A stretch of DNA of 64,000 bases. Source: Gammaproteobacteria bacterium RIFCSPHIGHO2_12_FULL_63_22. GTDB taxonomy: Bacteria > Pseudomonadota > Gammaproteobacteria > Xanthomonadales > Xanthomonadaceae. Position 1 is the first letter of the stretch. Each line of letters begins with the position of its first letter. The stretch lies in NCBI GenBank assembly GCA_001801685.1, contig MGYJ01000041.1:1-64000 (forward strand), in the 5' to 3' direction. Positions 3,851 to 37,536 of this stretch are shown in pieces. The notes beneath the pieces are model-generated. The model searched no databases. It worked only from the letters and a program-made list of their open reading frames with translations, and was not told the DNA's origin. A program made the position numbers and the translations under genes.

Positions 3851-3867
3851 TGCACCATCATAGTGCA
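3851..3867 (-). promoter_or_regulatory. NtrC-binding box directly upstream of ntrB
   Basis: On the minus strand the 17 bases read TGCACTATGATGGTGCA. This fits the established enterobacterial NtrC consensus TGCACYANNNTGGTGCA at every defined position. It ends one base before the ntrB ATG. An NtrC box overlapping the transcription or translation start of ntrBC is the arrangement used for autorepression in enteric bacteria (glnL promoter); the same role here is inference. Confidence 0.8.
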
Positions 3868-3918
3868 AAACCGGGACCGCGTTTCGGAAACGGGATAAGG
3901 TTAAAGTGGGCAGAACTC

Positions 3919-3947
3919 CATAGTTTGTACCTAATGTACCGACTATG
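3919..3947. repeat. 29-bp inverted repeat at left island border
   Basis: The arms CATAGTTTGTAC and GTACCGACTATG are separated by CTAAT. The arms match at 10 of 12 positions (CATAGT/ACTATG and GTAC/GTAC pair perfectly; the two central bases differ). It lies upstream of hsdM and contains the start of the border repeat at 3938. It could be an operator for the HTH-hsdM protein or part of a recombination/transposase site. Confidence 0.6.
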
Positions 3948-3952
3948 TGATT
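3938..3952 (+). repeat. Left copy of 15-bp island-flanking direct repeat
   Basis: ACCGACTATGTGATT; 14 of 15 bases are identical to 33042-33056 (ACCGACTATGCGATT) in the same orientation. Weaker relatives with the GACTATGTG core occur at about 32932-32940 and 32956-32964. Consistent with an attachment-site-like or transposase-binding duplication; the function is unproven. Confidence 0.5.
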
Positions 3953-3979
3953 GACAAATGCTATGTTTGTTATACAAAC
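3951..3979 (+). promoter_or_regulatory. hsdM promoter with palindromic operator
   Basis: A -35 TTGACA (3951-3956) and a -10-like TATACA (3971-3976) are separated by 14 bp, shorter than the ideal 17. The -10 is embedded in the inverted repeat GTTTGTTATACAAAC (3965-3979; 6-bp perfect arms), and a further AACAAAC half-site follows at 3981-3987. Transcription would begin within a few bases of the hsdM ATG at 3988, which has no Shine-Dalgarno, so a nearly leaderless message is predicted. The HTH domain at the N-terminus of HsdM is a natural candidate to bind the repeat. Confidence 0.5.
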
Positions 3980-3987
3980 TAACAAAC

Positions 3988-5807
<1,820 letters not shown>

Positions 5808-7064: not shown

Positions 7065-10005
<2,941 letters not shown>

Positions 10006-10009
<4 letters not shown>

Positions 10010-10341
10010 AGGCCTCCCATTACCCTGCACAGGATCTCCGACGATTGACCATGGCCTGGGCGATCAAGCTCAAGGTCAATCCTCGAATTATTCGCGTTCA
10101 GGAAATGCGACGCAAATGGGGTTCGTGCTCCTCAAACAAGATCGTCACTCTTGCGGCCGATCTGGTGGATGAAGATCGCGCCTTTCAAAACTACGTGATC
10201 GTGCACGAACTACTTCACCTCAAGTACTCCAAGCACGGCCGCGTGTTCAATGCGTTGCTCAGTGCGTATGTTCCGGGATGGAGGCGGTGGGAATCGAAGC
10301 AATTCCGCGTTCTGGCTCCCAAGTCTCTTAGGACCCATTAG
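10006..10341 (+). CDS. YgjP-like zinc metallopeptidase (DUF45/M48-type)
   Basis: 111 residues. The zinc signature is clear: [16 protein letters not shown] (HExxH followed by a third histidine in K-H-G), preceded by the family motif [11 protein letters not shown]. This is the compact WLM/YgjP-like domain, about half the length of a full YgjP protein. Genes of this type commonly follow type I R-M operons, and here ATG overlaps the hsdR stop by 4 bp. A role in proteolytic control of the restriction subunit, analogous to ClpXP-mediated restriction alleviation, is plausible but is inference. The 3' end overlaps the convergent tniQ gene by 14 bp, so no transposon end can lie between the two operons. 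Confidence 0.88.
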
Positions 10342-11698
10342 CGGCCCACTGAGCAACCTCATGGGCCCGCCGAGTTTCGAAGGCGAGGAGCTCGCCTTCA
10401 TCTTCACTAAGGGCGAGCGCCTCGCGGAGTCCGGCGCAGGCGCTGGCACACTGTTCCGCGGCTGCGGCGTTAAAGTCGAATCGTTGGACGAGGTGCTGAA
10501 TCAGCGACTCCTTGAAGTCTACGGGAACACCGCCTTTCTCGAGTAGCCTCATGCACGACGTAGCTCCAAGCTTGAAGCGTTGCACACTAAGAAGACGATC
10601 TTGCGATCGAAACCGTGTCGTGAATGATTCATGCTCCAAAGGACAGTAGTCCCGCACACCGTCGCACCAAAGTCCCAGCTCGCGCCAAAGTACCGAGGGA
10701 GGGGGCAGCGGGGAGGCGCCGGATGCGAGCTTGTCGATGACATACACCACCCTTCGGTGTGGGCGGGTGAGATCTCTTCTTCGGAACAACAACCCATCGA
10801 AGCGCGCCACTCCCGGCACGATTCGAGGCGAAGCGGCAAATGAGGGATGGCACAAGATCTCATGGATCGCTACGCCTTGGAACGCGGCGAGATTTAGGAG
10901 CGTAGTGACAGTCGGGAGTGAACGCTTCAGGGCCCGCCTGTGGTACTCCATCGCGATGTACCCGCGAATTGGTGGCGGAAGCGGCTCACCGTTGGGTCTG
11001 GCACGCATCTCTGCCAGGAACTCGAGGTACTTCTCGTTTGTTATTGGCGTATCGACGGTTGCTATCCACGTCGTGAACTCCAAAAGGGCCGCATTCACCC
11101 AGAGGGCCTGCTTGTCAGACTCTCTCGCCCCTTTCCCGTGTGCGAGCGAACATTGGCACCGCTGACATTTGCGCCTGTGGCGATATCCCGCTGAGAATTC
11201 CTGAGAGACGCCGCAAGATGAACAACGCGACTCCAACTGCACCCCATGATTCGGGCAGGCAGTAAGCATGTCGAATGCCCAGATTAGGGGCTCGCTGGAG
11301 CTCGGGTCATCCCAGTCCAGGTAGCACGCTGGACACCATACGCGTCCCTCTCCGCGAATCTGCCTCCGACGGGTACCTCCCCTTCCCATTACATCCGCTA
11401 GAACATGGAATGTACCCGTATGGAGATTATGAACGCCGGTGTCATGCTCTAGCGCGGCCAATAGGGATCGGAAGTTGCTCCTTGGCCCTATCCAACTGCT
11501 TGGAAAGATCGCATTGCCAGCCTTCGGCGCTCTCGGGTCGTCCCGTAACAGAAACTCTTCGAGCTTTCGAATCGTCAGACAGCATTGAGCCGCCATGCGG
11601 AGGGCGTAGTGATGAAGAGACTCCTGAAGCCCCGGCCCACCGGAACGGAGCGGACTCGGCGGAAGCGGGGTGACTAGGCCTCGGGATTTACCTCGCAT
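10328..11698 (-). CDS. tniQ: TniQ/TnsD-family transposition target-site selector
   Basis: 456 residues, longer than the shortest TniQ proteins and close to TnsD size. The N-terminal TniQ domain carries paired zinc-binding motifs: [11 protein letters not shown]...[19 protein letters not shown] (C-x2-C...C-x2-H...C-x2-C) and a further KCQRCQCS pair. The C-terminal half has helix-turn-helix-like segments ([18 protein letters not shown]) as in TnsD-type DNA readers. In Tn7-like elements TniQ recognises the insertion site or a guide complex and recruits TnsC. It starts 3 bp after tnsC as the last gene of the tnsAB-tnsC-tniQ operon. With no Cas genes nearby, direct DNA-sequence targeting is more likely than RNA guidance. 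Confidence 0.85.
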
Positions 11699-11701
11699 GC
11701 G

Positions 11702-12709
11702 CTACTCCCCAGCCGCCAAGTGAGCTCGATGAATTGCGAAAAGCTCATCCTTGGTAGCCGGTCTGCTTATCCTGTGAAGCAGATTCGCCTGGTCCCATAG
11801 GGCGGATACGTGGTCCGGAGTCTCAAAGGCCGCGGCTAGGTCGGCTGCGCTGATTTTTTCGCTGCCACGACTGGCTGCATTGACCTGAGCCTTGGCAAAC
11901 ATTTTCTTGACCGGCCGCATGCTCGTGGCTGTTGCAATGGCGATCTCGATGATCTGGCAACGGATCACCTCCTCGGATTCGAGCGCGTAATTGCTCCCAA
12001 CTTTCATGACTACCTCGTTTGCAAACTCGTTAAGCTGAGCCTTGTCTAGTACGTCGTAGGGGCGAATGAAGACGCGTTCAAGCCGCTCCGCGATTTCCGG
12101 CCGTCCTTCCCAAAGCTGGTAGCCCTCGGGTATCAGGTTGAGGATTCCCATAGTTTCAGTCGTCTCGAGCAGACTCATCAGATTCCAGAGGTGGTTCTTT
12201 GGCTCTTCACCTTTCGCAGATTTCCCTATGGCGGCGCCGTGCTCAAAGAGGACGTACTTGATCTTGCGATCAATTAGCGTCTCACCGAATGCACGCCAAT
12301 ACTCGTGCTCCGGCGTCCCCTGTGCGAAGCGGCTCGAAAACCATGCCTTTTCCGCGGCGAGCAATGATTCGAGATAGCTCTCGGACAGTTGTTCGTCGGA
12401 ATCGCGGTAGAGAGCGCGCAGATCCGGCTTGAGGGCGGCCCGATGACAGCGAGCTGCGAACGCTTTGGGGGAAAACGTAGAATTGGTGTCGAGGAGTACC
12501 ATAACTTCCGTTGCCGGGATGTATCCCTCTCCCCACTCGTCCGGCGCACCGAGAATTTCGCGTAGTACCTCGTTTCGCAAGAACGTTTTGCCCGCACCAG
12601 GCATTCCGCAGATCCCAACCAATCCTCCCGGCACGTGCTCCCTTAGCGCGAACTTCAAATGCTGTCTCGCACTCTTGTAGTGCCTGTGCTCAATTGGCGC
12701 CCTAAACAT
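11702..12709 (-). CDS. tnsC: TnsC/TniB-type AAA+ transposition regulator
   Basis: 335 residues. Walker A is VGICGMPGAGKTFL (residues 32-44). The expected Walker B strand reads KIKYVLFEHGA (150-159): the usual 'DE' is 'FE', so the glutamate is present but the metal-coordinating aspartate is not. A sensor-1-like segment (MGILNLIPEGYQLW) and an RxxxR stretch (RLERVFIRPYD) follow. In the family TnsC polymerises on target DNA with ATP, links TniQ to the transposase and gives target immunity. Its start abuts the tnsAB stop (TAAATG). The changed Walker B suggests slow or absent hydrolysis, which would affect disassembly and immunity; this is inference. Confidence 0.85.
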   Translation of the reverse strand: MFRAPIEHRHYKSARQHLKFALREHVPGGLVGICGMPGAGKTFLRNEVLREILGAPDEWGEGYIPATEVMVLLDTNSTFSPKAFAARCHRAALKPDLRALYRDSDEQLSESYLESLLAAEKAWFSSRFAQGTPEHEYWRAFGETLIDRKIKYVLFEHGAAIGKSAKGEEPKNHLWNLMSLLETTETMGILNLIPEGYQLWEGRPEIAERLERVFIRPYDVLDKAQLNEFANEVVMKVGSNYALESEEVIRCQIIEIAIATATSMRPVKKMFAKAQVNAASRGSEKISAADLAAAFETPDHVSALWDQANLLHRISRPATKDELFAIHRAHLAAGE

Positions 12710-15226
12710 TTAGGTGGCGCTCAAGGCTGAACTGCCCCAGTCGACCGTCGGATACTCTATCTGCAGCTCTTTGAACTCGGGCAGCTTCGTTTCCGGCAGC
12801 CTGTCGGTGAGGTGTTCTTTCCCGAACATTGCCTCCGTCATCTCCGCTTCCCGTCTCTCAACTGTCACTCTTTTCTGCTCCTTGTTGTGCGCGGCGGCCT
12901 CGGAGCGCCAAATCGGCTCGCAAAGAAGCTTGAATAGCTTGTGCTCTCCCGATCGCGAGAGCAGCGGCACGCAGTCTCTACGGAACGCCCGATACCAATT
13001 TCCACCAGCCTTGGCGTAGACAACTGCTGGGTTTATGCAGTCCTTTCTTATTTCAGTGATGTGAGTAGTTCGCAGAGCCGCATTCAGAGCCGCACCAGCG
13101 TAGGTTCCCTCGACCAGACGAATCCCACGCGACCGCTCTATCGTGCGCGGAACTTCTATTTCAGTTGAGGTCAGCACTCGGAACGCATCGTTGAACTCGC
13201 AACGAATGCCTCCCTCGCCCGCAAGATCAGTTAGGTACTCACGCAAGTCTGCCGGGCTCATTTTGTCGTTGCCAACCCGAGTGCTTGCAAACTCGCTGTA
13301 GAAGTACCCCTCAAATTGCCGTACGACGTGTTCGAAACCTTTGATGGCAGTCTTTCTACTCTTCATGCGGCCGTCCTTGGCCCGCCCCATCTGGTCGGGC
13401 AATGTGCTGCCGGGTCCTCTATGCGCTACGAAATGGTTTACCCGACCGATCAGATTCTCGGCCAAGCCGTTATAGCGGCTTCCGCCCGTCGGCGGCCAGC
13501 GGAGTTCAATTCCGAAGTGCTCCGCGAACTTCGAGATCCAGCTGCCCGTGTTTTCAGGTCCGCGGTCCAGTTGGATGCAGCGTGGCAAGAAGCCATGGCG
13601 CCAGACGAATTCGCGCATCAGGATGGCGAGCCCGTCCGTTCTCGCCGGGCCAAACATTAGGGCGTGCGCCATCGGATAGCCTGATGCCCCGTCCACGGCT
13701 GCATAGAACCTAGGGACGGAGGAAGGAAAGAGGGTGAGGATGTTTGCCGCGATGCGCTGGTCGAAGTTCGACGAGTCGATAATCAGCGTGTGACCAAAGA
13801 GGATGCTTGGCAGACTGCAGCGGCTTCCATCGGTTCGTGCCCTCTCCTTCTGGTACTGCCGAATACCGTCGACGATGAGTGTGCGGCGCGTCTGGTCTGT
13901 CTTGCGGATCTCCCTGTTGAGCGTGCTTTCGTGTGGAACATCGACGCCGTCAGCCTTGCAAAGTCCTCCCAGCGCCAGCCAAGCCTCAAAGCGGTCTGGA
14001 AATTCTCCACCGTTCCAACGCTCAACGACCTTTGCTAGTGCCGTCAACTGCTTTTCCACCAGTCGACGATCACGATTACCGCACTCGTCTTGACGGGATA
14101 GGCAGGCTTCGATCGGGCTAGTTCCACTGGCTATCGCAGCAAACACCAACTTCGCCAAGTCACTCATCCGCCTAGTGGGAGGCTCCTCGCCGCGGGCGAT
14201 TCTCTGAAGCCGATCCCACCTTTTCTTGGCAATTTCGACGTGCTCCGCCTTGGCTAACAGTATCCGGTCACTAATTCGAAGTTCCGCTGTTTCCGCCAGG
14301 TGGGAGCTCCAGAGTTCAGCGTCAACTACATCTCTATGCCCGCCCGCACTGAACAGCAGAAATGTGTCCACGTCCCCCATGGAGATAATTCTCTCCAAGC
14401 CGAAGGCGCTGCCTTCCGCGAGCATTTTTGCCGCCGAGCGAATGCTGAAGCCGGGAACGAGCTCGGAGATTTCTTCGATCGTCAACGGCCTGTCGCGAAG
14501 CGCGGCAGTTGCGGCACGGCGCAAGCTCTTGTCGGCGTCCGCATCTTCCGACCTGAGTTCGGCGTTGATGAGCTCGGCGTTCTGGAGCTCCACTGAGAAC
14601 AGTCGACCGACGGAGTAGACCTCCGCCTCGATTCCGAGTCGCTTGGCAAACCCGACGTGCGCAGTATTGATCCAGGCATCGCCTTGACGCTTCCACACGT
14701 CTTCCTTCTTTTGAGCGAGCTTCTCGAGCGCCTCCTCGGTCTTGCACTCGACAAGCACGATACGATTCTTGTAAAAGACCAGAAAGTCCAACGTTGGGTT
14801 TGAGACGTGCTGGCCTGTGCGCCCGGTGGGCACGCGCCGGCACTTGACCTGTGTTACGTACCCTATGACGTTCTGGTTGCGTTCTATCGAATAATGGAAG
14901 AGGCGCTCAACAGTATGGCTCTCCAGCCACCTTGGTCCGCCGTTCTTGCGGGACTGTACGCGGGTAATGAGGTTGTCGAGTGCGCCCTTGCCTGGCTTTC
15001 GCGTTGGCGCTTCAAGCACCATTTCTTCGATGGCGTCGATTTGACTCTCGCTGAGCCCGAGCGCCTCGTAGACAGGGTTCCGAAGCTCTCGGCTGAAAGT
15101 TTCTGGGCGTGGCGGTTGCGGTAGTCCGTCGCCGGCGGCGCGCAACGCTTTGCCAAGAGCTTGCGCGACCGCTTCGCTTATCGCGGTCGGGGTTCCGACG
15201 GGCAAGTCTAGAGTTGAGTCAAGCAT
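12710..15226 (-). CDS. tnsAB: TnsA-TnsB fusion transposase (Tn7-like)
   Basis: 838 residues. The N-terminal part is a TnsA-like restriction-fold endonuclease with an E-x(n)-D-x(12)-E-x-K pattern: ESHTVERLFHYSIE, then PTLDFLVF and VLVECKTEE (D147, E160, K162). A winged-helix-rich middle follows. The C-terminal retroviral-integrase-type domain has D484 (HTLIIDSSNF), D554 (CIQLDRGPEN) and E590 (RYNGLAENLIG), with the D-to-E gap of 35 residues typical of DD(35)E transposases. TnsA cuts the 5' and TnsB the 3' strand at the element ends, so a fusion predicts cut-and-paste movement. I chose ATG 15226, with GAGG about 10 nt upstream. An alternative GTG at 15322 would add 32 residues without homology and lies in the predicted antisense-RNA region. 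Confidence 0.87.
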   Translation of the reverse strand: MLDSTLDLPVGTPTAISEAVAQALGKALRAAGDGLPQPPRPETFSRELRNPVYEALGLSESQIDAIEEMVLEAPTRKPGKGALDNLITRVQSRKNGGPRWLESHTVERLFHYSIERNQNVIGYVTQVKCRRVPTGRTGQHVSNPTLDFLVFYKNRIVLVECKTEEALEKLAQKKEDVWKRQGDAWINTAHVGFAKRLGIEAEVYSVGRLFSVELQNAELINAELRSEDADADKSLRRAATAALRDRPLTIEEISELVPGFSIRSAAKMLAEGSAFGLERIISMGDVDTFLLFSAGGHRDVVDAELWSSHLAETAELRISDRILLAKAEHVEIAKKRWDRLQRIARGEEPPTRRMSDLAKLVFAAIASGTSPIEACLSRQDECGNRDRRLVEKQLTALAKVVERWNGGEFPDRFEAWLALGGLCKADGVDVPHESTLNREIRKTDQTRRTLIVDGIRQYQKERARTDGSRCSLPSILFGHTLIIDSSNFDQRIAANILTLFPSSVPRFYAAVDGASGYPMAHALMFGPARTDGLAILMREFVWRHGFLPRCIQLDRGPENTGSWISKFAEHFGIELRWPPTGGSRYNGLAENLIGRVNHFVAHRGPGSTLPDQMGRAKDGRMKSRKTAIKGFEHVVRQFEGYFYSEFASTRVGNDKMSPADLREYLTDLAGEGGIRCEFNDAFRVLTSTEIEVPRTIERSRGIRLVEGTYAGAALNAALRTTHITEIRKDCINPAVVYAKAGGNWYRAFRRDCVPLLSRSGEHKLFKLLCEPIWRSEAAAHNKEQKRVTVERREAEMTEAMFGKEHLTDRLPETKLPEFKELQIEYPTVDWGSSALSAT

Positions 15227-15283
15227 AGAGAGCGGCCTCAGTTCGGCACTGTCCGGATTAGTTCGGGACAATGAAGGGACGAC

Positions 15284-15311
15284 TTGACATGTCGGCCCGC
15301 CGCCGTAGACT
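15284..15311 (+). promoter_or_regulatory. Strong sigma-70 promoter divergent to tnsAB
   Basis: TTGACA (15284-15289), a 16-bp spacer, then TAGACT (15306-15311), on the strand opposite to tnsAB. No credible protein-coding gene follows; a terminator lies about 75 bp downstream. Start of transcription is expected near 15318. Confidence 0.55.
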
Positions 15312-15317
15312 CGCTCT

Positions 15318-15397
15318 GTCACTCTCCAATGACGAGATGCGGATCCCGGAAACGGCCCGTTCGCAATGCCGGCGCCCTAGGGCGCCGGTTTTGTTTT
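15318..15397 (+). ncRNA. Predicted ~80-nt RNA antisense to the tnsAB leader
   Basis: It is bounded by a near-consensus promoter (15284-15311) and a perfect hairpin terminator with a U-rich tract (15369-15397). No start codon with a ribosome site gives a meaningful product. It is complementary to the tnsAB 5' leader and to the region of the alternative tnsAB start at 15322, so it could limit transposase synthesis, as antisense RNAs do for other transposons (for example IS10 RNA-OUT). Prediction only. Confidence 0.4.
15369..15397 (+). terminator. Rho-independent terminator
   Basis: The 20-bp perfect palindrome CCGGCGCCCTAGGGCGCCGG (15369-15388) is followed by TTTTGTTTT (15389-15397). The U-tract is only on the plus strand, so it terminates plus-strand transcription. 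On the minus strand the same stem is followed by CATTGCG, and read-through from the small HTH gene into tnsAB would be possible. Confidence 0.75.
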
Positions 15398-25725: not shown

Positions 25726-26883
25726 CTATTTATAGGCCTCGCCGGTTAGAAGCAGACTGCAGACTTCCGGTCGCGAGTCTCTGACCGTTTGGGGATTGAC
25801 GACGTAGCGTGTTGGCTCAGCATGCGGAATGGCCACTCCATACTGCGCGCCAAGATCCTGTGGACGCATCTCAAAGCATGCCAATCCCGCTCCTAGCGTG
25901 ATGAGCTTGCTTCCGAAGGGGGTGATTACAAGTCTGCAGCCGCCAAGGACGACCATACTGTCGCGATACCGGCTCATTGCACCGAATAGTTGACGATAGG
26001 CCTCGAAGGGCTGTGACTCGTGTACATAGAGAATGTTGCTAGTCGGGGTGCGGCGCGAATCAAAGAGAGGGCTTCGGTATTCCAAAAGCAGCCGATCAGC
26101 TCGCCGCGGGTCTCGAGAAGGATGTGGCAGCACCGGACAAATTTCCGCGTCTCCCGGAATGGCATCCGATCTCATTATCTGCTGTAGCTGCTGTACGCGA
26201 TGCTCGCCAAGAATTGGGAACCACACGAGCGGCCAATCCTGGACGCTTTCTGCCTGCATAGCGCCGGAGAACCCAGGAACCAGGACGATCTCGCTGCTTG
26301 GGTCCTCTGCCATGATCAAGCCGTCGAGACCGGCGTCTTCCGCGACCAGCACCTGAAAATTGACGCCGCCGGCATAGAGAGCATCGCCGGCTGTCTTGTC
26401 CGGAATCAAACGGTTGAGCAAGCTGGTCATCAGGGCCAGATATACGACCCTGGGTAGGGAGCTTGCATCGAGGATGATGTCCGTCTGGTTGGAGACCATC
26501 TTTAGAACCTTGTCGGTTCCCATTCGCAATGCGCTGCTCGCACTAAGCTCGTCACCGTCTTCCGAGACCCCAAGAGTCAGCTTTTCAACGCTCCCGATTC
26601 CGGAGAACAGCGCGGAAAGCTCTTCTCCGTTTTGTCGCGTCAGTTCTTCGAGGTCCTCATCAAGTGTGTAGTTTGCGAAATCGATTAGCAGCAGCTTTGC
26701 CTCCTCAACGACGGCCCCGGAGTCTCGAATGCTGTTGACACACTCACGCATCACCGATTGGGCTCTTACGTCGAAGCCGCCACCGGCAATGTAGAGCAAT
26801 CGGATCGGACGATCCTCAAATAGCCGATCCCACAGATCGTTTGCATCTGCCCCCCGCCGGAACACGTATTGATCCCAGAGCAT
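25726..26883 (-). CDS. Orphan protein, last gene of the six-gene operon
   Basis: 385 residues, not recognised. ATG 26883 lies 2 bp after the ATPase stop; a longer ORF from 27096 only overlaps that gene. The N-terminus has a strand-turn motif RLLYIAGGGFDVRAQSV (about 28-44) resembling the first strand and glycine loop of a Rossmann-like fold. LLLIDFANYT and DIILDASSLPRVVYLAL are probable further strands. The C-terminal half is alpha/beta (VLGGCRLVITPFGSKLITLGAGLACFEM). Two acidic strand ends (LLIDF, IILDASS) could bind metal or nucleotide. No known toxin motif is seen. As the last gene after the ATPase it may be the effector or an adaptor, but its role is unknown. Confidence 0.7.
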   Translation of the reverse strand: MLWDQYVFRRGADANDLWDRLFEDRPIRLLYIAGGGFDVRAQSVMRECVNSIRDSGAVVEEAKLLLIDFANYTLDEDLEELTRQNGEELSALFSGIGSVEKLTLGVSEDGDELSASSALRMGTDKVLKMVSNQTDIILDASSLPRVVYLALMTSLLNRLIPDKTAGDALYAGGVNFQVLVAEDAGLDGLIMAEDPSSEIVLVPGFSGAMQAESVQDWPLVWFPILGEHRVQQLQQIMRSDAIPGDAEICPVLPHPSRDPRRADRLLLEYRSPLFDSRRTPTSNILYVHESQPFEAYRQLFGAMSRYRDSMVVLGGCRLVITPFGSKLITLGAGLACFEMRPQDLGAQYGVAIPHAEPTRYVVNPQTVRDSRPEVCSLLLTGEAYK

Positions 26884-26885
26884 GT

Positions 26886-28802
26886 CTAGTTTCCTATCCC
26901 TAAACGTTTTTGAGGCTTCCAGCCGCGCGCCATCCAATCGATGAGGTCCAGACACGAGACATCTTGCCATCCGCCCATTTGCAGCGGCAGACCGAAGTGA
27001 GCGCAAAGCGTCCGATTGAGATATAGAATCGAACCAGACTCGCGTGCCGTACTGGCGCCGCTCGCTCGGAGAACTAGTAGATTCTCTGCAATGCATTCCG
27101 ACAACACTTTCTTGAGCAGATCCCCTTGGTCGCCCATGTTCCTAGCGCCGCCCTGCAACTTGTCCATTTCCGACTGCGAGAGGCGAATTCCTGTCACTCC
27201 CGGCGCATATGGTGAATTTGGTAGGAACGTGCGCTCGCGGCAGTAACCGCCAATGGACATGATGAGCTGACGCGCCCGGGTTCCCTCTGTGTGCTGTTTC
27301 GGGACAAATTTTAGGCGTCTGGCCGCGGCGTCACGAAGCATCTTCTCTTGTTCTGCCGGGGACAGTTCCGGGCTTCGCTTCCCAAGGACCTGGCTGGCTA
27401 CGATGCCGTCGTACAGCGTTGCTGCCATCGATAGCAGTTCTTCGACATTATAGGTAGCCATTACGCAGAGACGTTCGAGGCCGTAGTAATACGGCAGACC
27501 TAGCTCTTCATGCAATTGAATCTCTGCCGCACCACGCAGCGAAGACGTGTCCTTCTCGTCGATGTCCTCTGCTGGCAGCGCCAGGTCTAGGCTCATCTGT
27601 TTTTTGGATGCGTCTCTCGCCACAAGGATTCGGGTCATGAACAACTCTAAGAGCATGTCCAACGTCGGATCCGCGATCTTTTTCTCCGCACGCGCGAGCC
27701 ACTCGCTGTAGCGGGCATTATTTTCGTGCGGCTGGATTGCCGCTCGGAATGCCTCGATGCCGGGCTGAACGAACTGGCTTATTTCCTCAGGTTCAAGCTG
27801 ATCTCGCAGTCGCTGCGAGAAAGTCCCGGTAACGGCGTCCTGACGATTCATGCGGCGGTCTAGAACGTTCTGCGCAAAAGACGAGAATTGATAGATGCCT
27901 TTTGATCCACTCCACAGTTCTTCCAGTGGATATTCCTTGATGTCCCGACCTTCGCGAGCGCCCTGCGATAGCAGCGAGTCTCCGAGAACCAAAGTTCGCA
28001 TGGCGAGCCAAACCGGAATCGCTGGCCGCTGCACGGTGAGTTCGTCAATCAGACCATCGCGCTGCTTACGGCGCAGACGGTGGAGGTCGTCCACCATCAG
28101 AAGGCGGTTGGTGGCCACAGGCTGTCCGTTCTGTAGAAATTGAACGGACTGTAGCCAGAGTACGCCCTCAAATCGGGGGCTTGAAGGCAATGCGTGCCCC
28201 GATCGACCGGCGAACGCATCCAATTCCGCGTAAATCCTCTTTTCCTGTTCCTCTGCCCAGGCCGCTAGTTCGCGCGCAGATGCGAGCTTCGGAATTCCCT
28301 GGATGTCTCTCGCCTCTTCCCCATATTCGAGTTTGATAGTTTCCAATGACTCGTCCGAGCTGAAGCCAAGATAGGCTCCTAGGCTGCGTATCGTGCGCAG
28401 GACGACTCGGCAGTCGAGCAAGGCGCGAAATGGTCCTTCCTCAATGGTGGATGCGCTGGGCGGGAGGTCCGCATATCCCGAGGCACAGGAAATCATTACT
28501 CCCAACAACTTGGGCCCCTCTAAGTCACTTAGCACGCCTTTCGAAACAAATTGCGGAAATGATTCCTTCAGCTCGTTTGTGCCCTTGGCGCGCCAAAAGC
28601 TCCGAAGCACGCTTGGCGTAAATGCTCGAAGAATCGTCGTTTTGCCGCCGCCTGGCGCGCTGCGAAAGATGTGCACGCCTCCTTTGAAGGCTTCGTCGGA
28701 GAGTTTCTCCAAAACCTTCGGAGAGAACACGAGCGCGAATTCCTGATCTGACGTCGTGCGCTCAGATCTCCGCTCAAGAAATGGATTGACGTTGTATGCC
28801 AT
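26886..28802 (-). CDS. P-loop ATPase (STAND/ORC-CDC6-like) of the six-gene operon
   Basis: 638 residues. Walker A is HIFRSAPGGGKTTILRA (about residues 44-60); Walker B is NRLLMVDDLHRL (232-243). Between them lies an unusually long helical insertion (about 60-230). The region after Walker B includes IPVWLAMRTLVLGDSLL, where sensor-1 would be expected, and the C-terminal ~300 residues are helical with winged-helix-like ends. The layout resembles ORC/CDC6-like or STAND ATPases found in bacterial defence islands, where the ATPase senses an invader and controls an effector. Start and upstream stop overlap by one base (TGATG), so it is coupled to the phosphoribosyltransferase-like gene. Assignment to a named family would need a profile search. 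Confidence 0.8.
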   Translation of the reverse strand: MAYNVNPFLERRSERTTSDQEFALVFSPKVLEKLSDEAFKGGVHIFRSAPGGGKTTILRAFTPSVLRSFWRAKGTNELKESFPQFVSKGVLSDLEGPKLLGVMISCASGYADLPPSASTIEEGPFRALLDCRVVLRTIRSLGAYLGFSSDESLETIKLEYGEEARDIQGIPKLASARELAAWAEEQEKRIYAELDAFAGRSGHALPSSPRFEGVLWLQSVQFLQNGQPVATNRLLMVDDLHRLRRKQRDGLIDELTVQRPAIPVWLAMRTLVLGDSLLSQGAREGRDIKEYPLEELWSGSKGIYQFSSFAQNVLDRRMNRQDAVTGTFSQRLRDQLEPEEISQFVQPGIEAFRAAIQPHENNARYSEWLARAEKKIADPTLDMLLELFMTRILVARDASKKQMSLDLALPAEDIDEKDTSSLRGAAEIQLHEELGLPYYYGLERLCVMATYNVEELLSMAATLYDGIVASQVLGKRSPELSPAEQEKMLRDAAARRLKFVPKQHTEGTRARQLIMSIGGYCRERTFLPNSPYAPGVTGIRLSQSEMDKLQGGARNMGDQGDLLKKVLSECIAENLLVLRASGASTARESGSILYLNRTLCAHFGLPLQMGGWQDVSCLDLIDWMARGWKPQKRLGIGN

Positions 28803-29905
28803 CAGAAGTCCCTATGCCTTACGACCCGGGGGAACAACCCGGGGTAGGCGAAGTGCTCGGGGCCCCACAGTAAGTAGACTGAATTGTTTGGAGTGTTGTG
28901 GGAGAGCACTACCGGCAGCGCGCAATTGGCAAACCCAAGCCGTCCGTCCGCGCCACCGACCTTCATGTGTTTGTCGTTTGCCCTGACGTCAAAGTATTTG
29001 GTTTTCCCAAGCAGCGCAGTGAGAGGAGGCGATGTCTTCTCAGTCAACGCAAGGCTTCTCTCAAGGCGGCACAGCACTCGCAGTTGCAGTGGCTTGAAGC
29101 CGCGCTCGGAGGTGAACCGCTCGCTCCAGTACTCGATATGATCGATAGCCTGACGCGTAGCTACGTAAAGCACCAGAAACACTTCGTAGTGCGAAGGGTC
29201 AATTAGATGTCTCTCGTGCAACTGTTCGTAGATCTTCTGAAGCTTTCCGCCATATGACTTGCTCTCGCTGTCATAACGAATGTATGTGTTGCCGCTGCCT
29301 GAGAAGTCGTCTAACAACCAAATTAGGTTGAAGTGAGGTGCTTGGGACTGGAGCCCCGCTTTTTCCAGCTCCGCCTTCAGATCCTTGAGCATCGATGCGG
29401 ATTTTTGTTCTCCGAGTTCGTAGGCTTGCCAGATCTGCTCGTTGTTGATGCGGTGATTGCTCGCTCGGCGAAGTTCGTTGGTCCTCGCACCATCGCTAAG
29501 CCCTAAGTACAGGGACTTCAGCCGTAACTCTTCGAACCTCTTGTGCCGCGACAGTTCGCCAACCTTGTGGGTTGGGATGTCGTTTTCCTCCGCTACAAGG
29601 CGGAGGCGTTCTTGGACGATTACATCGGGATATGCAGTCTCGACCAGATGAGCCACCTCCGTGTCGGAAAAGTAGACGAGTCTTTCCTTGACGAGCTCAA
29701 GCGCCGCGGGGCGGTCTTCAGGGTCGAGCTGCTTGAGCCAAAGCGCCAAACTTTCGATGAACCTGCGTCCTGGGCCGAAGCGCTGGTAATAATCGTATTT
29801 GTAGTAGGCAAGGAGCTGCAGCCCGGCAACGTTTTCAAGGACCTGGTCTTGGTCCTGCCAACCCATTACCCGCGCCAAAAGCTTCGCAGCGTTGCTGTCT
29901 TGCAT
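28802..29905 (-). CDS. Phosphoribosyltransferase-like protein of the six-gene operon
   Basis: 367 residues from ATG 29905, 2 bp after the upstream stop; the longer ORF from 29989 merely overlaps the SIS-HAD gene. An N-terminal helical domain (about 1-185) is followed by a strand-loop motif FNLIWLLDDFSGSGNTYIR (192-210). This is close to the PRPP-binding loop of type I phosphoribosyltransferases (hhhhDDhxxTGxT), with SGSGNT for TGGT. A further YEVFLVLYVATRQAIDHIEYW strand-helix follows. Such a protein would bind PRPP or a ribose-phosphate nucleotide. It may transfer the phosphoribosyl group or serve as a nucleotide sensor. Its position between SIS-HAD and the ATPase links sugar-phosphate chemistry to ATPase control. 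The catalytic role is unproven. Confidence 0.75.
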   Translation of the reverse strand: MQDSNAAKLLARVMGWQDQDQVLENVAGLQLLAYYKYDYYQRFGPGRRFIESLALWLKQLDPEDRPAALELVKERLVYFSDTEVAHLVETAYPDVIVQERLRLVAEENDIPTHKVGELSRHKRFEELRLKSLYLGLSDGARTNELRRASNHRINNEQIWQAYELGEQKSASMLKDLKAELEKAGLQSQAPHFNLIWLLDDFSGSGNTYIRYDSESKSYGGKLQKIYEQLHERHLIDPSHYEVFLVLYVATRQAIDHIEYWSERFTSERGFKPLQLRVLCRLERSLALTEKTSPPLTALLGKTKYFDVRANDKHMKVGGADGRLGFANCALPVVLSHNTPNNSVYLLWGPEHFAYPGLFPRVVRHRDF

Positions 29906-29907
29906 GG

Positions 29908-31860
29908 CTATTGTTCGCTCAATGGTTCGTGCGACACCGAGACTCCAAAGTATCCATTCCCGTCTGTCTGGAGACGGTCCAAGTACCAAAGGGTTGCGTC
30001 TACATCCCTCTTGTGACCCGGGGCTAGTTTCCAGCCGCGGTCTAGCCGCCGCGACGGCATGTCCACACTCAGCGAAAAGCGGTGCTCAAGTAGTGACACA
30101 TCGTTACCTGGCCAGGCCCCTTGATCTCCCATTGTCAGGACCTGGTGCGGGTCGATCCTGTCAGTTTGGATGATGTGCGCGATGAGCCCAGACTTACTTA
30201 TCCCCGGCGCCAGCACGTCGACGGAGTGCTTACTGGTGAACATCGTGCTTGTCGTCAATCCGGCTTGGCGCAATGCATCGGCCACGACAAACCACATTCG
30301 GTCCGTAGGTAGCCCGTCCCGAAACCGGATGCTTACTTGGTAAGGGTGGGTTGGCTTGATTCTCTCTATCGGGACGCCCAATGACTTCAGCTTTTGCGCG
30401 ATGCGGGTCACGTGACTGAGAAATTCGACGGTGCCGGGCGGAAGTTCGAGTGGAGTAGTTGCTGTTCCGATCCACCCACCGTTGTATAGGCCGAGAAGTA
30501 GCCGCTCACGAATGGCTTCTGGAAGAACCCTTTCTAGCTCTTCCTGTATAGAATCGCCGCGCCCCGATGCAATCCCGACTCGCACTCCGGCCTCAACGAG
30601 GCGTTTGATGTGACGGACAATGTGCTCGGTAGGCGGAGACGTTCTTCTCTGCGATGCCGTGAGGGTCCCGTCATAGTCGAAGACAATGGCCTGAAATCTC
30701 TGCTCGGTAAGTGAGTTGATGAACGCATCGCGAGCTCGAGTCATGTCACTACGCCGTCGTTGGGACGGCCAACGAGCGCCAATTACGTCGTACTTGGACT
30801 GCTCGGCTGCGGAAACTCGCTCTCCGGGCGGCGGAATGACTTTGGGGAGGTCAATATAGTAAAGATCGCGGCCGAACTGCGGGACTTCAGGCTGCCCTGG
30901 GTCCTTGCCAAACCGTTCAGCAATCAGCCTAACGAGATGCATTTGACCAATCAGGCCGACGATTAGGTCTCGGGGTGACGATCCGGCAAGCGGCATCGCT
31001 AGAGTTGGAACTTCTGCCGGGAAGAGCGCGCTCATTTTTGTCCACAACCCTTCGAGCGAGGGCTCGATTAGCGCCAGGATTGTGATGTCCTGAGGTCGCT
31101 CGGCAAGCCACAGGTGCCTGCCATGAGCAAACGAGCGCAGATCGGCCAGCTGACAGTGTAGGAGTGCTCCTTCCGAAAGCTTTGATTCTAGGTCTGCTGC
31201 GATTGGATGCAGCAAGGGTGAATACGTGGCGACGATTGCTCCTCGCTGCGCCGTGGCTTCGACGAACTCCTGAGCCGAAGCCACCCACTGCGCAATCGTC
31301 TGATTTCCAATTCGCAGTTCGTCCATCGACGCGGGAAGTGCGTTGGGATTGCCATCTAGCTCGCTGTACGCACGCGCCACGAGTACCGCGTCGAGCAGCA
31401 GGCTGTTCGTCGCTAGGTAGCCATCCTTTTCCTGCAATTCGAATACGTGGGCGCTGACATCCGATAGAAGCGATACGCCCTCCATTAGCGGACTGGAGGT
31501 GCGATTTGTAAGAACGTGAACCGGCCTCGCGCTGTGATGCCTAGCGCGCTCCAGCGCTTCCGTGATGTCCGGGTTCTTGCCTTCTGCCGAGACAAGAAAC
31601 ACTGGACTGGAGGACGCGAGCGTCGGATTGCAGATGATCTCCAAGGGCGTCGACGGTCGCGATACGCGACCGGTGTACGACTCATGAAGGCTGCAGAGGA
31701 GCGAGGCGACGGTAAATGATCCGCCCGATCCGACTCCGATGATGCTCGACTCACTTGCCCCAGCAATTGCTTGTTTCAGGCGCGACACGTCTTCATGCAT
31801 GGCTGCCTGATATGTAGCCGACAGCTTGTCTAGCTCTGATTGGTAGCGATTAGTCGGCAT
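29908..31860 (-). CDS. SIS-HAD fusion protein (sugar-phosphate isomerase domain plus phosphatase)
   Basis: 650 residues. Residues about 20-330 form two SIS subdomains as in GlmS/AgaS. They include the phosphosugar loop IIGVGSGGSFTVAS (40-53), and ESKLSEGALLHCQ followed by ADLRSFAHGRHLW (about 225-251), which matches the catalytic 'K-x-x-E ... HG' region of the isomerase family. Residues about 388-640 are a HAD phosphatase: nucleophile D395 and D397 in VFDYDGTLT, S432 in ASGRG, K556 in ISKSG, and MGDQGAWPGND (D579, D587). A C2-type cap lies between motifs II and III, as in sucrose-phosphate or Cof-type phosphatases. The fusion suggests conversion and dephosphorylation of one sugar phosphate. 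It starts 25 bp after NADAR. Confidence 0.82.
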   Translation of the reverse strand: MPTNRYQSELDKLSATYQAAMHEDVSRLKQAIAGASESSIIGVGSGGSFTVASLLCSLHESYTGRVSRPSTPLEIICNPTLASSSPVFLVSAEGKNPDITEALERARHHSARPVHVLTNRTSSPLMEGVSLLSDVSAHVFELQEKDGYLATNSLLLDAVLVARAYSELDGNPNALPASMDELRIGNQTIAQWVASAQEFVEATAQRGAIVATYSPLLHPIAADLESKLSEGALLHCQLADLRSFAHGRHLWLAERPQDITILALIEPSLEGLWTKMSALFPAEVPTLAMPLAGSSPRDLIVGLIGQMHLVRLIAERFGKDPGQPEVPQFGRDLYYIDLPKVIPPPGERVSAAEQSKYDVIGARWPSQRRRSDMTRARDAFINSLTEQRFQAIVFDYDGTLTASQRRTSPPTEHIVRHIKRLVEAGVRVGIASGRGDSIQEELERVLPEAIRERLLLGLYNGGWIGTATTPLELPPGTVEFLSHVTRIAQKLKSLGVPIERIKPTHPYQVSIRFRDGLPTDRMWFVVADALRQAGLTTSTMFTSKHSVDVLAPGISKSGLIAHIIQTDRIDPHQVLTMGDQGAWPGNDVSLLEHRFSLSVDMPSRRLDRGWKLAPGHKRDVDATLWYLDRLQTDGNGYFGVSVSHEPLSEQ

Positions 31861-31885
31861 CGCGTGGATAGCAGTCGCGATCCGA

Positions 31886-32473
31886 CTACGCCGCTACAGG
31901 CACTGAGTCGCGGTTGCGAGACCCGTTCGCGTGCTTAGCCTTTTTGCTGCTCTCCTTCATCCGCGACTCCTCTAGCTTCCGGATTTGTTCGCGCACTTCC
32001 ATGAGCAGCACTCCGAGCATGTTTAATCCCTTCCCTTTTACTTCGCCCCACGTTCGATTCACGAGATTGTCGGTTCGCCCAACTTCCACTAGTCGCGAGT
32101 TACCTGTCGAAAGCAGTAGCTGTTTCAAATCTTCATGCTGTGAAAATTTCGCCAGCAACACGTCTCGCATTCTGTCGAACTTGGTCTTTGACCAGTCCGG
32201 ATTGATGTCCCAGGTGTAGAGCCCATGCGCAGCCATAGCAACCAGCGAAGGAGTAGGCGCACTGAGAATCCACTCTCGAACCTCTTCCTTTCGAGCCTTG
32301 CCGGCCTGGTACGCATGCTCAGCTGTAGGGTACTCCCGGCCCTCGAAGACCATCGAGCGCCGAAAAAGATTGCTGAAAGCGCCGTACGGCTTCTCGTTTG
32401 ATCGATAGAACGAGATATCAACCTGCCTACTAGTCGCTTTCGCGGATTTTGAGGGTGCCGCGGTTCGGGTCAT
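31886..32473 (-). CDS. NADAR-domain N-glycosidase (YbiA-like)
   Basis: 195 residues. The NADAR core (about 20-165) is clear: ISFYRSNEKPYGAFSNLFRR, the signature YPTAEHAYQAGKA with the catalytic-region glutamate, then WDINPDWSKTKFDRMRDVLLAKF and a late GLNMLGVLLMEVREQ. The C-terminal tail is lysine-rich. The family hydrolyses N-glycosidic bonds in NAD-derived or riboflavin-pathway compounds, and some members remove ADP-ribose from guanine. ATG overlaps the RHH stop by 4 bp (32470-32473). No DarT-like ADP-ribosyltransferase is nearby, so if it is an antidote or processing enzyme, its counterpart must come from within the operon or from the invader. Confidence 0.88.
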   Translation of the reverse strand: MTRTAAPSKSAKATSRQVDISFYRSNEKPYGAFSNLFRRSMVFEGREYPTAEHAYQAGKARKEEVREWILSAPTPSLVAMAAHGLYTWDINPDWSKTKFDRMRDVLLAKFSQHEDLKQLLLSTGNSRLVEVGRTDNLVNRTWGEVKGKGLNMLGVLLMEVREQIRKLEESRMKESSKKAKHANGSRNRDSVPVAA

Positions 32474-32661
32474 TGGCTGGTCTCCTTCTTTGAAGCGATG
32501 GGAATCTCTTGGCCCTTGCAGTAGTTGAGGATCAAGACTTCGATCAGCCCCGTTAGGCTTCGGTTGTCCCGATCCGCAGCAATCTCGGCCGCGGCCTTTA
32601 GCTGCGGCGTGACCCGCAACGTCATGGTCGTCGTCTTCGTTTTCGGGCGACCTCTAGGCAT
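32470..32661 (-). CDS. Ribbon-helix-helix (CopG/Arc-like) regulator
   Basis: 63 residues. The strand KTTTMTLRVTPQLKAAAEI followed by two helices (AAAEIAADRDNRSLTGLIEVLILNYCKG) is the RHH fold, and the basic N-terminus (PRGRPKTK) would contact DNA. RHH proteins bind as dimers to short repeated operators and repress their own operon. Two 16-bp direct repeats spaced 33 bp apart lie just upstream (32667-32715). It is the first gene of the six-gene operon and overlaps NADAR by 4 bp, the usual arrangement of an autoregulator with its partner. Confidence 0.85.
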   Translation of the reverse strand: MPRGRPKTKTTTMTLRVTPQLKAAAEIAADRDNRSLTGLIEVLILNYCKGQEIPIASKKETSQ

Positions 32662-32666
32662 GCCTT

Positions 32667-32715
32667 TAATGTACAGCTTTTTTCGGTACCTTGTCTGTAT
32701 TATGTACTGCGTTTT
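32667..32715. promoter_or_regulatory. Direct repeats upstream of the RHH gene (candidate operator)
   Basis: Two copies of TWATGTACWGCKTTTT: TAATGTACAGCTTTTT (from 32667) and TTATGTACTGCGTTTT (32700-32715). They start 33 bp apart, three helical turns, in the 5' region of the RHH-NADAR operon. The spacing puts both on one face of the DNA, as expected for RHH dimers binding cooperatively. A GGTACC lies between them. Confidence 0.5.
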
Positions 32716-36126: not shown

Positions 36127-37536
36127 TCAGATCGCGTAGTACATCGCGTATTCCAGCGGATGCGTCGCCGCGCGGAACTTGGTCACTTCGCCCATCTTCA
36201 GCGCGATGTAGCTGTCGATGAAATCATCCGAGAACACGCCGCCGGCTTTCAGGAACTCGCGGTCGCCGTCCAGTGCGTCGAGCGCCTGGTCCAGCGAATG
36301 GCAGACGGTCGGGATGTTCTTCTCTTCTTCCGGCGGCAGGTCGTACAGGTCCTTGTCGCTCGGCGCGCCCGGGTCGATCTGGTTCTTGATGCCGTCCAGG
36401 CCGGCCATCATCAGCGCCGAAAAGATCAGGTAGCCGGAGTTCATCGGATCCGGGAAACGGATCTCGATGCGGCGGCCTTTTGGATTTGCGACATACGGAA
36501 TGCGGCACGAGGCGGAACGGTTGCGGGCCGAATAGGCCAGCATCACCGGCGCTTCGAAGCCCGGCACCAGGCGCTTGTAGCTGTTGGTGGTGGAGTTGGC
36601 GAAGGCGTTGATGGCGCGCGCGTGCTTGAAGATGCCGCCGATGTACCAGAGCGCGATCTGCGACAGGCCGCCGTAGCCGTCACCGCTGAACAGGTTGACG
36701 CCGCCCTTGGCCAGCGACTGGTGCACGTGCATGCCGCTGCCGTTGTCGCCGACCAGCGGCTTGGGCATGAAGGTGGCGGTCTTGCCGTTGCGATGCGCCA
36801 CGTTCTTGATGATGTACTTCATCATCAGCAGCTCGTCGGACTTCTGCACCAGCGTGTTGAACTTGGTGCCGATCTCGCACTGGCCCGCATTCGCCACTTC
36901 ATGGTGGTGCACTTCCACTTCCTGGCCGGCGGCCATCAGTTCCTTGCACATCTCGGCGCGGATATCGTGCAGCGAATCGACCGGCGCGACGGGGAAGTAA
37001 CCACCCTTCAGGCCCGGGCGATAGCCGGTGTTGCCGCCTTCGTACTTCTTCTTCGAATTCCAGTGTGCTTCCTCGGAATCGATCTCGAAGAAGGTATTGC
37101 CCATTTCATTGGCGTAGCGGACCGAATCGAAGATGAAGAATTCCGGCTCCGGGCCGAAGAAGGCCTGGTCGGCGATGCCGGTGGCTTTCAGGTAGGCCTC
37201 GGCGCGCTTGGCGACGCCGCGCGGATCGCGCGAATAAGCCTGCATGGTGGCCGGGTCGAGGATGTCGCAGACCAGGATGAGGGTCGGGTCGGCGGTGAAC
37301 GGATCGAGCACCGCGGTGTTCACGTCGGGCAGCAGGATCATGTCGGACTCGTTGATGCCCTTCCAGCCACTGATGGACGAGCCGTCGAACATCTTGCCGT
37401 CTTCGAACAACGCAGGCTCGATGATGCTGACCGGAAAGGTCACGTGGTGCTGGACGCCGCGGACGTCGGCGAAACGCAGGTCGACGAATTCGATCGCGTT
37501 GTCTTTGACCAGCTTGGTGACGTGTTCGTAGGACAT
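36127..37536 (-). CDS. glnA: Glutamine synthetase type I (GSI-beta)
   Basis: 469 residues, the standard length. The family blocks are intact: the FDGSSISGW latch, the E-box [12 protein letters not shown], the ammonia/glutamate-binding [38 protein letters not shown], and the adenylylation loop [14 protein letters not shown] with the modifiable tyrosine. It makes glutamine from glutamate, ammonia and ATP as a cytoplasmic dodecamer, with GlnE-type adenylylation expected. GGAG lies about 8 nt before ATG 37536. Upstream are a perfect sigma-54 promoter (37574-37589) and NtrC boxes (37651-37667; 37681-37697), so it is a direct target of the NtrB/NtrC pair encoded in this window. Confidence 0.98.

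Follow-up and report, generated by a model that had tools for sequence, protein, structure and literature searches.

A candidate mobile defence system that joins a phosphoribosyltransferase to CARF, ATPase and sugar-processing proteins in a Xanthomonadaceae genome

Our analysis of a 64,000-nucleotide stretch of DNA from Gammaproteobacteria bacterium RIFCSPHIGHO2_12_FULL_63_22 (Xanthomonadaceae; assembly GCA_001801685.1, contig MGYJ01000041.1, positions 1 to 64,000; hereafter the window) has identified a six-gene operon with a widely conserved core, encoding a SIS-HAD fusion, a phosphoribosyltransferase (PRTase), an ORC-CDC6-like ATPase and a CARF-family protein. We read this operon, tentatively and a little short of calling it probable, as a mobile conflict system, most likely anti-phage, in which the ATPase and the CARF protein would gate an effector that uses phosphoribosyl pyrophosphate (PRPP), and the SIS-HAD protein together with a PfkB-family kinase or a NADAR protein would process the product. 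Anti-phage defence is what we infer from the genomic neighbourhood, the mobility of the genes and the kinship of the effector. What appears to be new is a candidate defence system with a PRTase as effector, a link to CARF and a dedicated NADAR or PfkB module. By sequence match, the CARF6, PRTase-CE and ORC-CDC6-like families are already catalogued in Pfam or PADLOC, and the parts have therefore been noticed by others.

The six genes lie tightly packed on the minus strand, with intergenic gaps of -4, 25, 2, -1 and 2 bp. All frames are open, and the start codons of the PRTase and CARF genes match the starts of their homologues. The original prediction, made from the DNA letters alone, that they form one operon agrees with these coordinates and gaps. 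In order of transcription, the features are:

32671..32707, minus strand: putative RHH operator, four RTAC boxes beginning 46, 39, 28 and 13 nt upstream of the RHH start codon
32470..32661, minus strand: ribbon-helix-helix (RHH)-like probable autoregulator, 63 aa, weak family matches, 4 bp overlap with the NADAR gene
31886..32473, minus strand: NADAR-family protein, 195 aa, presumed N-glycosidase (Pfam, TIGR02464, nearest structure YbiA)
29908..31860, minus strand: fusion of a SIS sugar-phosphate isomerase/deglycase-like and a HAD-IIB sugar-phosphatase-like domain, 650 aa (Pfam, HAD-SF-IIB, family profile, motifs)
28802..29905, minus strand: PRTase-CE, type I phosphoribosyltransferase-like, 367 aa, PRPP loop DDFSGSG (PF24390, PADLOC PRTase_III-A, fold model)
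26886..28802, minus strand: ORC-CDC6-like P-loop ATPase, 638 aa (PF24389, Walker A)
25726..26883, minus strand: CARF6-family protein, 385 aa (PADLOC CARF6)

The domain calls made in the same prediction stand for the NADAR, HAD, PRPP-loop and P-loop ATPase proteins. Those of SIS and RHH are weak on the single sequence, the former being backed by a family profile. The sixth protein, which had been described as unrecognised, belongs to a catalogued CARF family: it matches PADLOC CARF6--CARF_CARF_CARF (PDLC01910) at 8.8e-116 over residues 1-385, covering positions 1-348 of the 348 in the profile. This is a full-length family match, and orphan status was rejected on that basis.

Relatives of the operon are widespread. 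When genome contigs were scanned with the PRTase alignment, 349 stretches were returned; 274 of these are relatives, and the best 80 among them were kept. By record title, these 80 belong to 13 named phyla apart from one locus that is unassigned, with 53 in Pseudomonadota and one archaeal (Nitrososphaerota, a metagenome assembly); many of them are metagenome bins, in which contigs can be misassigned. Plasmid records were recovered with the CARF query (18) and the PRTase query (19), with 17 in common, and three loci lie on viral contigs. No match was found in phage records, nor in complete genomes of E. coli by a near-mode search. Among 83 loci collected with the PRTase, 59 have enough flank to be treated as complete and 24 were set aside; 11 of the latter are without a core gene or without both NADAR and PfkB, which is expected at contig ends and is uninformative either way. 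All four core genes are present in 58 of the 59 complete loci, the exception (L075) having SIS-HAD, NADAR and a truncated PRTase. The PRTase, ATPase and CARF members found are on the same strand in all 59, and SIS-HAD precedes the PRTase in every one, on the opposite strand in three. Because nearly every complete relative keeps the four core genes, with three of them on one strand, we conclude that the grouping is not a matter of chance. Homologues of the core genes do not scatter independently, and of the 18 plasmid records recovered through CARF, 17 were recovered through the PRTase as well; together with the plasmid copies, this supports the recurring mobile unit that had been proposed.

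The accessory genes vary among the complete loci: 23 have NADAR without PfkB (22 with a full core, plus L075), 28 have PfkB without NADAR, eight have both and none has neither. The exact six-gene set, which the original prediction took as the unit, was rejected since NADAR and RHH are lineage-specific and other loci carry PfkB; it is the variant of one clade. On a quick tree of 80 rows, which came with a warning of long branches that meet, the presence of PfkB needs one change and that of NADAR seven, or five without L046 and L064, whose contigs are cut before the place of NADAR. On this tree, PfkB is lost once, in the clade of the window, and repeated NADAR-for-PfkB swaps were rejected because the PfkB pattern is a single change. 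The window falls in a clade of 32 rows without PfkB, 30 of which have NADAR, the remaining two being the same cut contigs. Since this clade also includes one bin each of Chloroflexota and Acidobacteriota, and a strain of Thermodesulfobacteriota, its membership suggests horizontal transfer.

The CARF protein has no Pfam match above cut-off. Its AlphaFold model (pLDDT 93.2) resembles Csa3-cA4 (probability 1.00, E 1.4e-3, rmsd 4.1 over 159 columns, rank 17) and Csm6 (probability 0.92-0.96, ranks 11 and 15), and the protein is thus predicted to have a CARF Rossmann-like fold. The PRTase matches Pfam PF24390 (PRTase-CE) at 1.7e-16 and, at best 9.9e-18, the PADLOC PRTase_III-A models, which we take to stand for retron type III-A. 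The best fold matches of its AlphaFold model (pLDDT 94.5) are uracil PRTases, with probabilities up to 1.00 and none with an E-value below 0.001, and the PRPP-loop residues D199, D200, F201, S204 and G205 are conserved in at least 95% of 90 PRTase sequences. With this loop motif and a PRTase fold, the match to the latter being partial, the protein is predicted to bind PRPP. Family-profile searches for CARF or the PRTase returned nothing credible.

The remaining core proteins also retain their motifs. The ATPase matches PF24389 (ORC-CDC6-like) at 4.2e-21, and its Walker A residues P50, G51, G53, K54 and T55 together with D238 are conserved in at least 95% of 85 sequences. Among 274 genomes of the class, 36 have a PF24389 match with E<=0.001 and eight, including the genome of the window, are over the cut-off. 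In Pfam, the SIS-HAD protein scores 2.8e-11 for HAD and 0.057, below the cut-off, for SIS; it reaches 48.8 bits against HAD-SF-IIB (cut-off 41.8), and its family profile matches SIS structures of the NagB-II/FrlB type as well as sugar phosphatases. At least 95% of 87 sequences share the glycine motif of SIS with E230 and H246, and D395, D397, K556 and D579 of HAD; the spacing of 16 residues between that E and H invites a comparison with GlmS. The family profile of PfkB, the kinase of the other variant, matches fructokinases. Enzymes of the PfkB, SIS and HAD classes phosphorylate, isomerise or deglycate, and dephosphorylate sugars, respectively. The proposal that the parts belong to ribose or sugar-phosphate chemistry is borne out by the enzyme families of NADAR, the PRTase and SIS-HAD. 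We also observed a CPxCG-like cysteine motif in the consensus of the system's PfkB kinases (alignment A7).

The NADAR protein is assigned to the YbiA-type family, by Pfam (5.4e-29; 102 bits, cut-off 35.1), by TIGR02464 (92.3 bits, cut-off 73.7) and by its family profile, for which the nearest solved structure is YbiA (2b3w, 3e-28); N-glycosidase activity is presumed. NADAR is well conserved, with 64-90% identity (median 70%) to the copy in the window across 50 loci. The core proteins have medians of 32-41%, taken over 82-89 loci, sets that are both larger and more distant. All eight plasmid NADARs at 55% identity or more are in records that carry the system. Two other plasmid NADARs (E<=1e-20, 47% identity) are in records without a match to the PRTase query, and the one copy inspected has other neighbours. 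As judged from these distributions, the NADAR subfamily is dedicated to the system. Two catalogued anti-phage entries were also compared. Against NCBIfam NF053876 ('DS32_2' NADAR anti-phage protein), the operon NADAR scores 64.1 bits, far below the 240-bit cut-off, and it matches PADLOC PDC-M42C at 4.9e-09; in both cases the likeness is to the NADAR family.

The RHH protein has weak family matches (HicB 0.03; YlcI_YnfO_N 0.0083), and homologues occur in 13 of the 22 loci with NADAR, a full core and no PfkB. An RHH hit was obtained in 20 loci, and the upstream regions of seven were compared; in the remaining 13, the start-codon pattern used recognised no start. The RTAC boxes occupy positions -46, -39, -28 and -13 relative to the RHH start in three regions, those of the window, L043 and L045. 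In L044, the related copy from Arenimonas oryziterrae, the whole set is displaced by 1; L042 has three of the four boxes, and L049 and L063 do not share them. An operator-like array thus fits five of the seven regions, and its form could be that of a tandem RHH operator. The suggested autoregulation gains a putative operator and is a possible role, for a lineage-specific protein of weak family assignment. A scan for promoters and terminators gave no excess over shuffled sequences.

The operon segment is mostly 55-60% G+C, and most of the flank to its right is near 65%. About 32 kb separates ntrB (2783-3994) and glnA (36127-37536) in the window. Ten relatives were fetched from the 36 family members with an ntrB match; glnA lies 0.07-3.3 kb from ntrB in six of them (L157, L159, L160, L162, L163 and L164) and was not found in the stretch fetched in the other four. 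From this difference in spacing, a genomic island is the most likely location of the operon, with the ntrB-glnA interval as the probable insertion site of that island. Also within the segment are a type I methylase gene, an RHS gene, the transposition genes TniQ and rve and, convergent with the operon, an anti-phage gene:

24238..25653, plus strand: PD-T7-1 anti-phage gene, convergent neighbour outside the operon (PADLOC PD-T7-1, 2.3e-167)

Defence genes are also found beside the system in relatives. The flank set comprised 68 loci (nine near-duplicate loci excluded) with 519 open reading frames (ORFs) called and 267 scanned against PADLOC; the control set comprised 20 regions around GGDEF or Cas10-like matches in 14 host genomes, with 296 ORFs and 267 scanned. 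ORFs over 900 aa were excluded from both, and seven ORFs were removed from the first control batch of 144, so that its 137 matched the flank batch in number. At 1e-15, the PADLOC families matched numbered 13 in the flanks versus 4 in the control (137 ORFs each) and 159 versus 27 (130 each); these are counts of overlapping families, not of proteins, and one large defence locus could inflate the flank count. The flank matches listed, which for the second batch are the first 25, include PglZ, PglX, BrxL, GajA, AbiEi, AbiEii, HerA and restriction enzymes. The control was headed by SspA/DndA, mad3 and PDC-S02, and the matches listed for its second batch also include families named DpdF, PsyrT, BrxHI, SngC, PbeA and caspase. 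When the first batch was grouped by name, nine flank proteins counted as true defence versus none in the control (Fisher p 0.0034), a post hoc judgement in which control SspA/DndA, DEDDh and C3a214 (GlgB) were set aside as housekeeping. Given the plasmids and the defence genes beside the system, the defence setting that had been proposed is probable.

Several further observations concern the mobility of the system. A probable Tn7-like transposition module at 10328-15322 of the window comprises genes for TniQ and an rve transposase, together with one that occupies the TnsC position and has no Pfam hit. A repeat search around the operon brought up no convincing transposon ends, and no synteny was seen at the TonB-receptor loci of relatives, in stretches too short to show it. 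TniQ, TniB and transposase genes lie near the system on an Agrobacterium plasmid (L127), and flank ORFs of relatives in the second batch match TnsB and TnsC. On Rhizobium plasmids, a caspase-family gene (L038, 14040-15494) and a patatin-like phospholipase gene (L033, 10374-11999) are nearby. The whole core is present in nine of the ten plasmid loci profiled, L040 having no more than a CARF piece; in L038, one of those nine, and in L039, SIS-HAD comes after the CARF gene, and two plasmids (L033 and L036) have a second core-gene copy, complete or cut. A contig classed as viral (L122, from IMG/VR) has a full copy of the RHH-NADAR type at 7221-14191, with a match to a DNA methyltransferase family and PHROG families of unknown function nearby. 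Broken or partial copies, which may be a sign of loss, are seen in L130 (Rhizobium sp. CC-CFT758 plasmid, split annotated genes), L040 and L128 (a lone PRTase), and in a Nostoc assembly (L077, 11080-13077) the ATPase match is split across two adjacent open frames.

How might such a system work? The steps that we infer beyond a conserved operon with conserved active-site motifs are these. The ATPase and the CARF protein would be the sensing and gating part and, upon infection, would release the PRTase, which would spend PRPP to phosphoribosylate a base, a nucleotide or a macromolecule; alternatively, it might make a ribonucleotide-like signal that is read by the CARF protein. Growth arrest would be the outcome. 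SIS-HAD with PfkB or NADAR would then process or remove the ribosyl product, NADAR by hydrolysing an N-glycoside and the other route by phosphorylation followed by SIS deglycation and HAD dephosphorylation, which would limit self-damage and serve as an off-switch. The RHH protein would repress its own promoter. Because the PRTase is joined both to CARF and the ATPase and to enzymes that possibly act on its product, an effector-plus-antidote design or a self-made ribonucleotide signal is favoured. A more specific proposal, which we consider rather unlikely as it stands, is a PRPP-based counterpart of ADP-ribosylation immunity, in which the gated PRTase would write phosphoribose on nucleobases, whether free or part of DNA or RNA, and the erasers would come from the operon itself, as a dedicated NADAR glycosidase or a PfkB-SIS-HAD deglycation route.

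Parts of this arrangement are known from other systems. PRTases are typical effectors of type III retrons (PMC12548924), and their mode of action there was called unknown in 2022 (PMC9122126). The operon shares with retron type III-A a PRTase homologous to the corresponding models (9.9e-18), whereas the retron has PRTase and winged-helix genes and the operon has an ATPase and CARF in the place of the sensor. Family scans found no reverse transcriptase in the six operon proteins (only some of the other ORFs of the window were scanned), and Rfam gave no match, to a retron noncoding RNA or otherwise, in 3900-33300; the identity of the operon as a retron was rejected on these two grounds. The DprA-PRTase system of P2-like phages likewise pairs a PRTase as suggested effector with a candidate sensor, DprA being likened to the antitoxins of shosTA and others (PMC9122126), but the partners in our operon are an ORC-CDC6-like ATPase, a CARF protein and sugar-processing enzymes rather than DprA. 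A validated system with a PRTase is listed in PMC13092281, and the term 'PRTase' does not occur in PMC4012209 or PMC12669027. In the literature searched, the coverage of which was partial so that an earlier mention is possible, the whole gene set was not seen described as a system.

The presence of NADAR brings to mind the DarT1-NADAR and YarT-YbiA toxin-antitoxin pairs, in which, as possibly here, NADAR erases a ribosyl adduct: NADARs reverse guanine ADP-ribosylation and are the antitoxins of DarT-NADAR operons (PMC11125620). The operon differs in that its candidate writer would use PRPP instead of NAD, and no match to an ADP-ribosyltransferase family is listed for any of its six proteins. 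A toxin-antitoxin-like ribosylation system, with the PRTase as toxin and NADAR plus SIS-HAD as antidote and serving mainly plasmid or island maintenance, would suit the antitoxin role of NADARs, the possible autoregulator and the plasmid locations. However, a large ATPase and a CARF protein exceed the needs of such a pair, NADAR is missing from 28 of the 59 complete loci, and partial or broken copies persist. We regard this explanation as doubtful, more so than the nucleobase-writing proposal above. We give somewhat more weight, while still thinking it unlikely, to a metabolic or biosynthetic island without a defence function, in which SIS-HAD, PfkB, the PRTase and NADAR would make or salvage a special sugar-nucleotide under regulation by CARF and the ATPase. 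The sugar-phosphate and ribose enzyme classes with their conserved motifs would be at home in such a pathway, and a distant PRTase relative (26% identity) on a Streptomyces scopuliridis plasmid (L129, NZ_CP109092.1, 8929-9900) lies in a region that also has genes of PRPP synthase (prs), pgi, the phosphoenolpyruvate (PEP) mutase family, aconitase and a dehydrogenase, and that may specify the synthesis of a phosphonate or nucleotide-like natural product. Arguments against a metabolic island are that the core includes a CARF protein and an ORC-CDC6-like ATPase, that the spread is mobile and patchy, that the flanks are rich in defence genes and that the PRTase is akin to those of retrons.

The CARF family and fold raise the prospect of an ancillary effector set whose cyclic oligonucleotides come from a type III CRISPR or CBASS system at another place in the genome. 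Type III CRISPR effectors such as Csa3, Csm6 and Chp share these features, Chp being a CARF-HAD fusion (PMC12715507), although in the operon HAD and CARF are on separate proteins. We surveyed 50 hosts (the genome of the window, for which alone completeness is known, and those of 49 of the 80 genome loci). Cas10 (PF22335) reached at least 50 bits in eight; 16 were over the 27-bit cut-off, which an E. coli control also passes. SMODS was over the cut-off in eight hosts, none of them among those with strong Cas10, leaving 34 of 50 with neither (other cyclase families were outside the search). The genome of the window has no Cas10 (PF22335) match and no Cas1. It does have two SMODS nucleotidyltransferase matches about 0.9 kb apart, away from the operon (G000:C90:24208-26065), possibly CBASS, which is a point in favour of a cyclic-oligonucleotide source. 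Nevertheless, with 34 of 50 hosts lacking both strong Cas10 and SMODS, the CARF ligand is probably not the cyclic oligoadenylate of type III CRISPR; it would more probably be made by the operon or be a common metabolite. A role as a type III CRISPR accessory was rejected for the genome of the window and for most hosts tested, and a set fed by cyclic oligonucleotides appears to us the most improbable of the explanations considered.

To return to the reading of the operon as a gated, PRPP-using conflict system, a number of points weigh against it. The loci were gathered by PRTase similarity, so that the PRTase is present by construction; they include several near-duplicates and, being the best 80 of 274, leave more distant contexts unseen. 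The list of fold matches for CARF is headed by loose Rossmann matches (KaiC and transporter domains, with poor superposition), several with better E-values, and the fold match of the PRTase is partial (query TM about 0.2). A biosynthetic role is possible for the PRTase, as the PRPP synthase and PEP mutase-family neighbours of its Streptomyces relative illustrate. The exchange of NADAR and PfkB amounts to a single loss of PfkB with no repeated swaps. The families counted in the neighbourhood test overlap, and 4 and 27 of them were matched by the control itself, some with the names of defence proteins. Finally, one flank ORF of a relative in the second batch matches a PADLOC reverse transcriptase family at 3.2e-88.

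PRTases are recurrent effectors of retrons and of DprA-linked defence, and here one is surrounded by probable downstream or antidote enzymes. The substrate of the effector might therefore be read from its helpers, as an N-ribosyl or sugar-phosphate adduct. A CARF protein that works without strong Cas10 or SMODS in most tested hosts makes CARF sensing outside CRISPR directly testable. If the proposed chemistry is true, phosphoribosylation from PRPP would serve immunity as a modification or signal that can be reversed, with a range from Proteobacteria to an archaeon.

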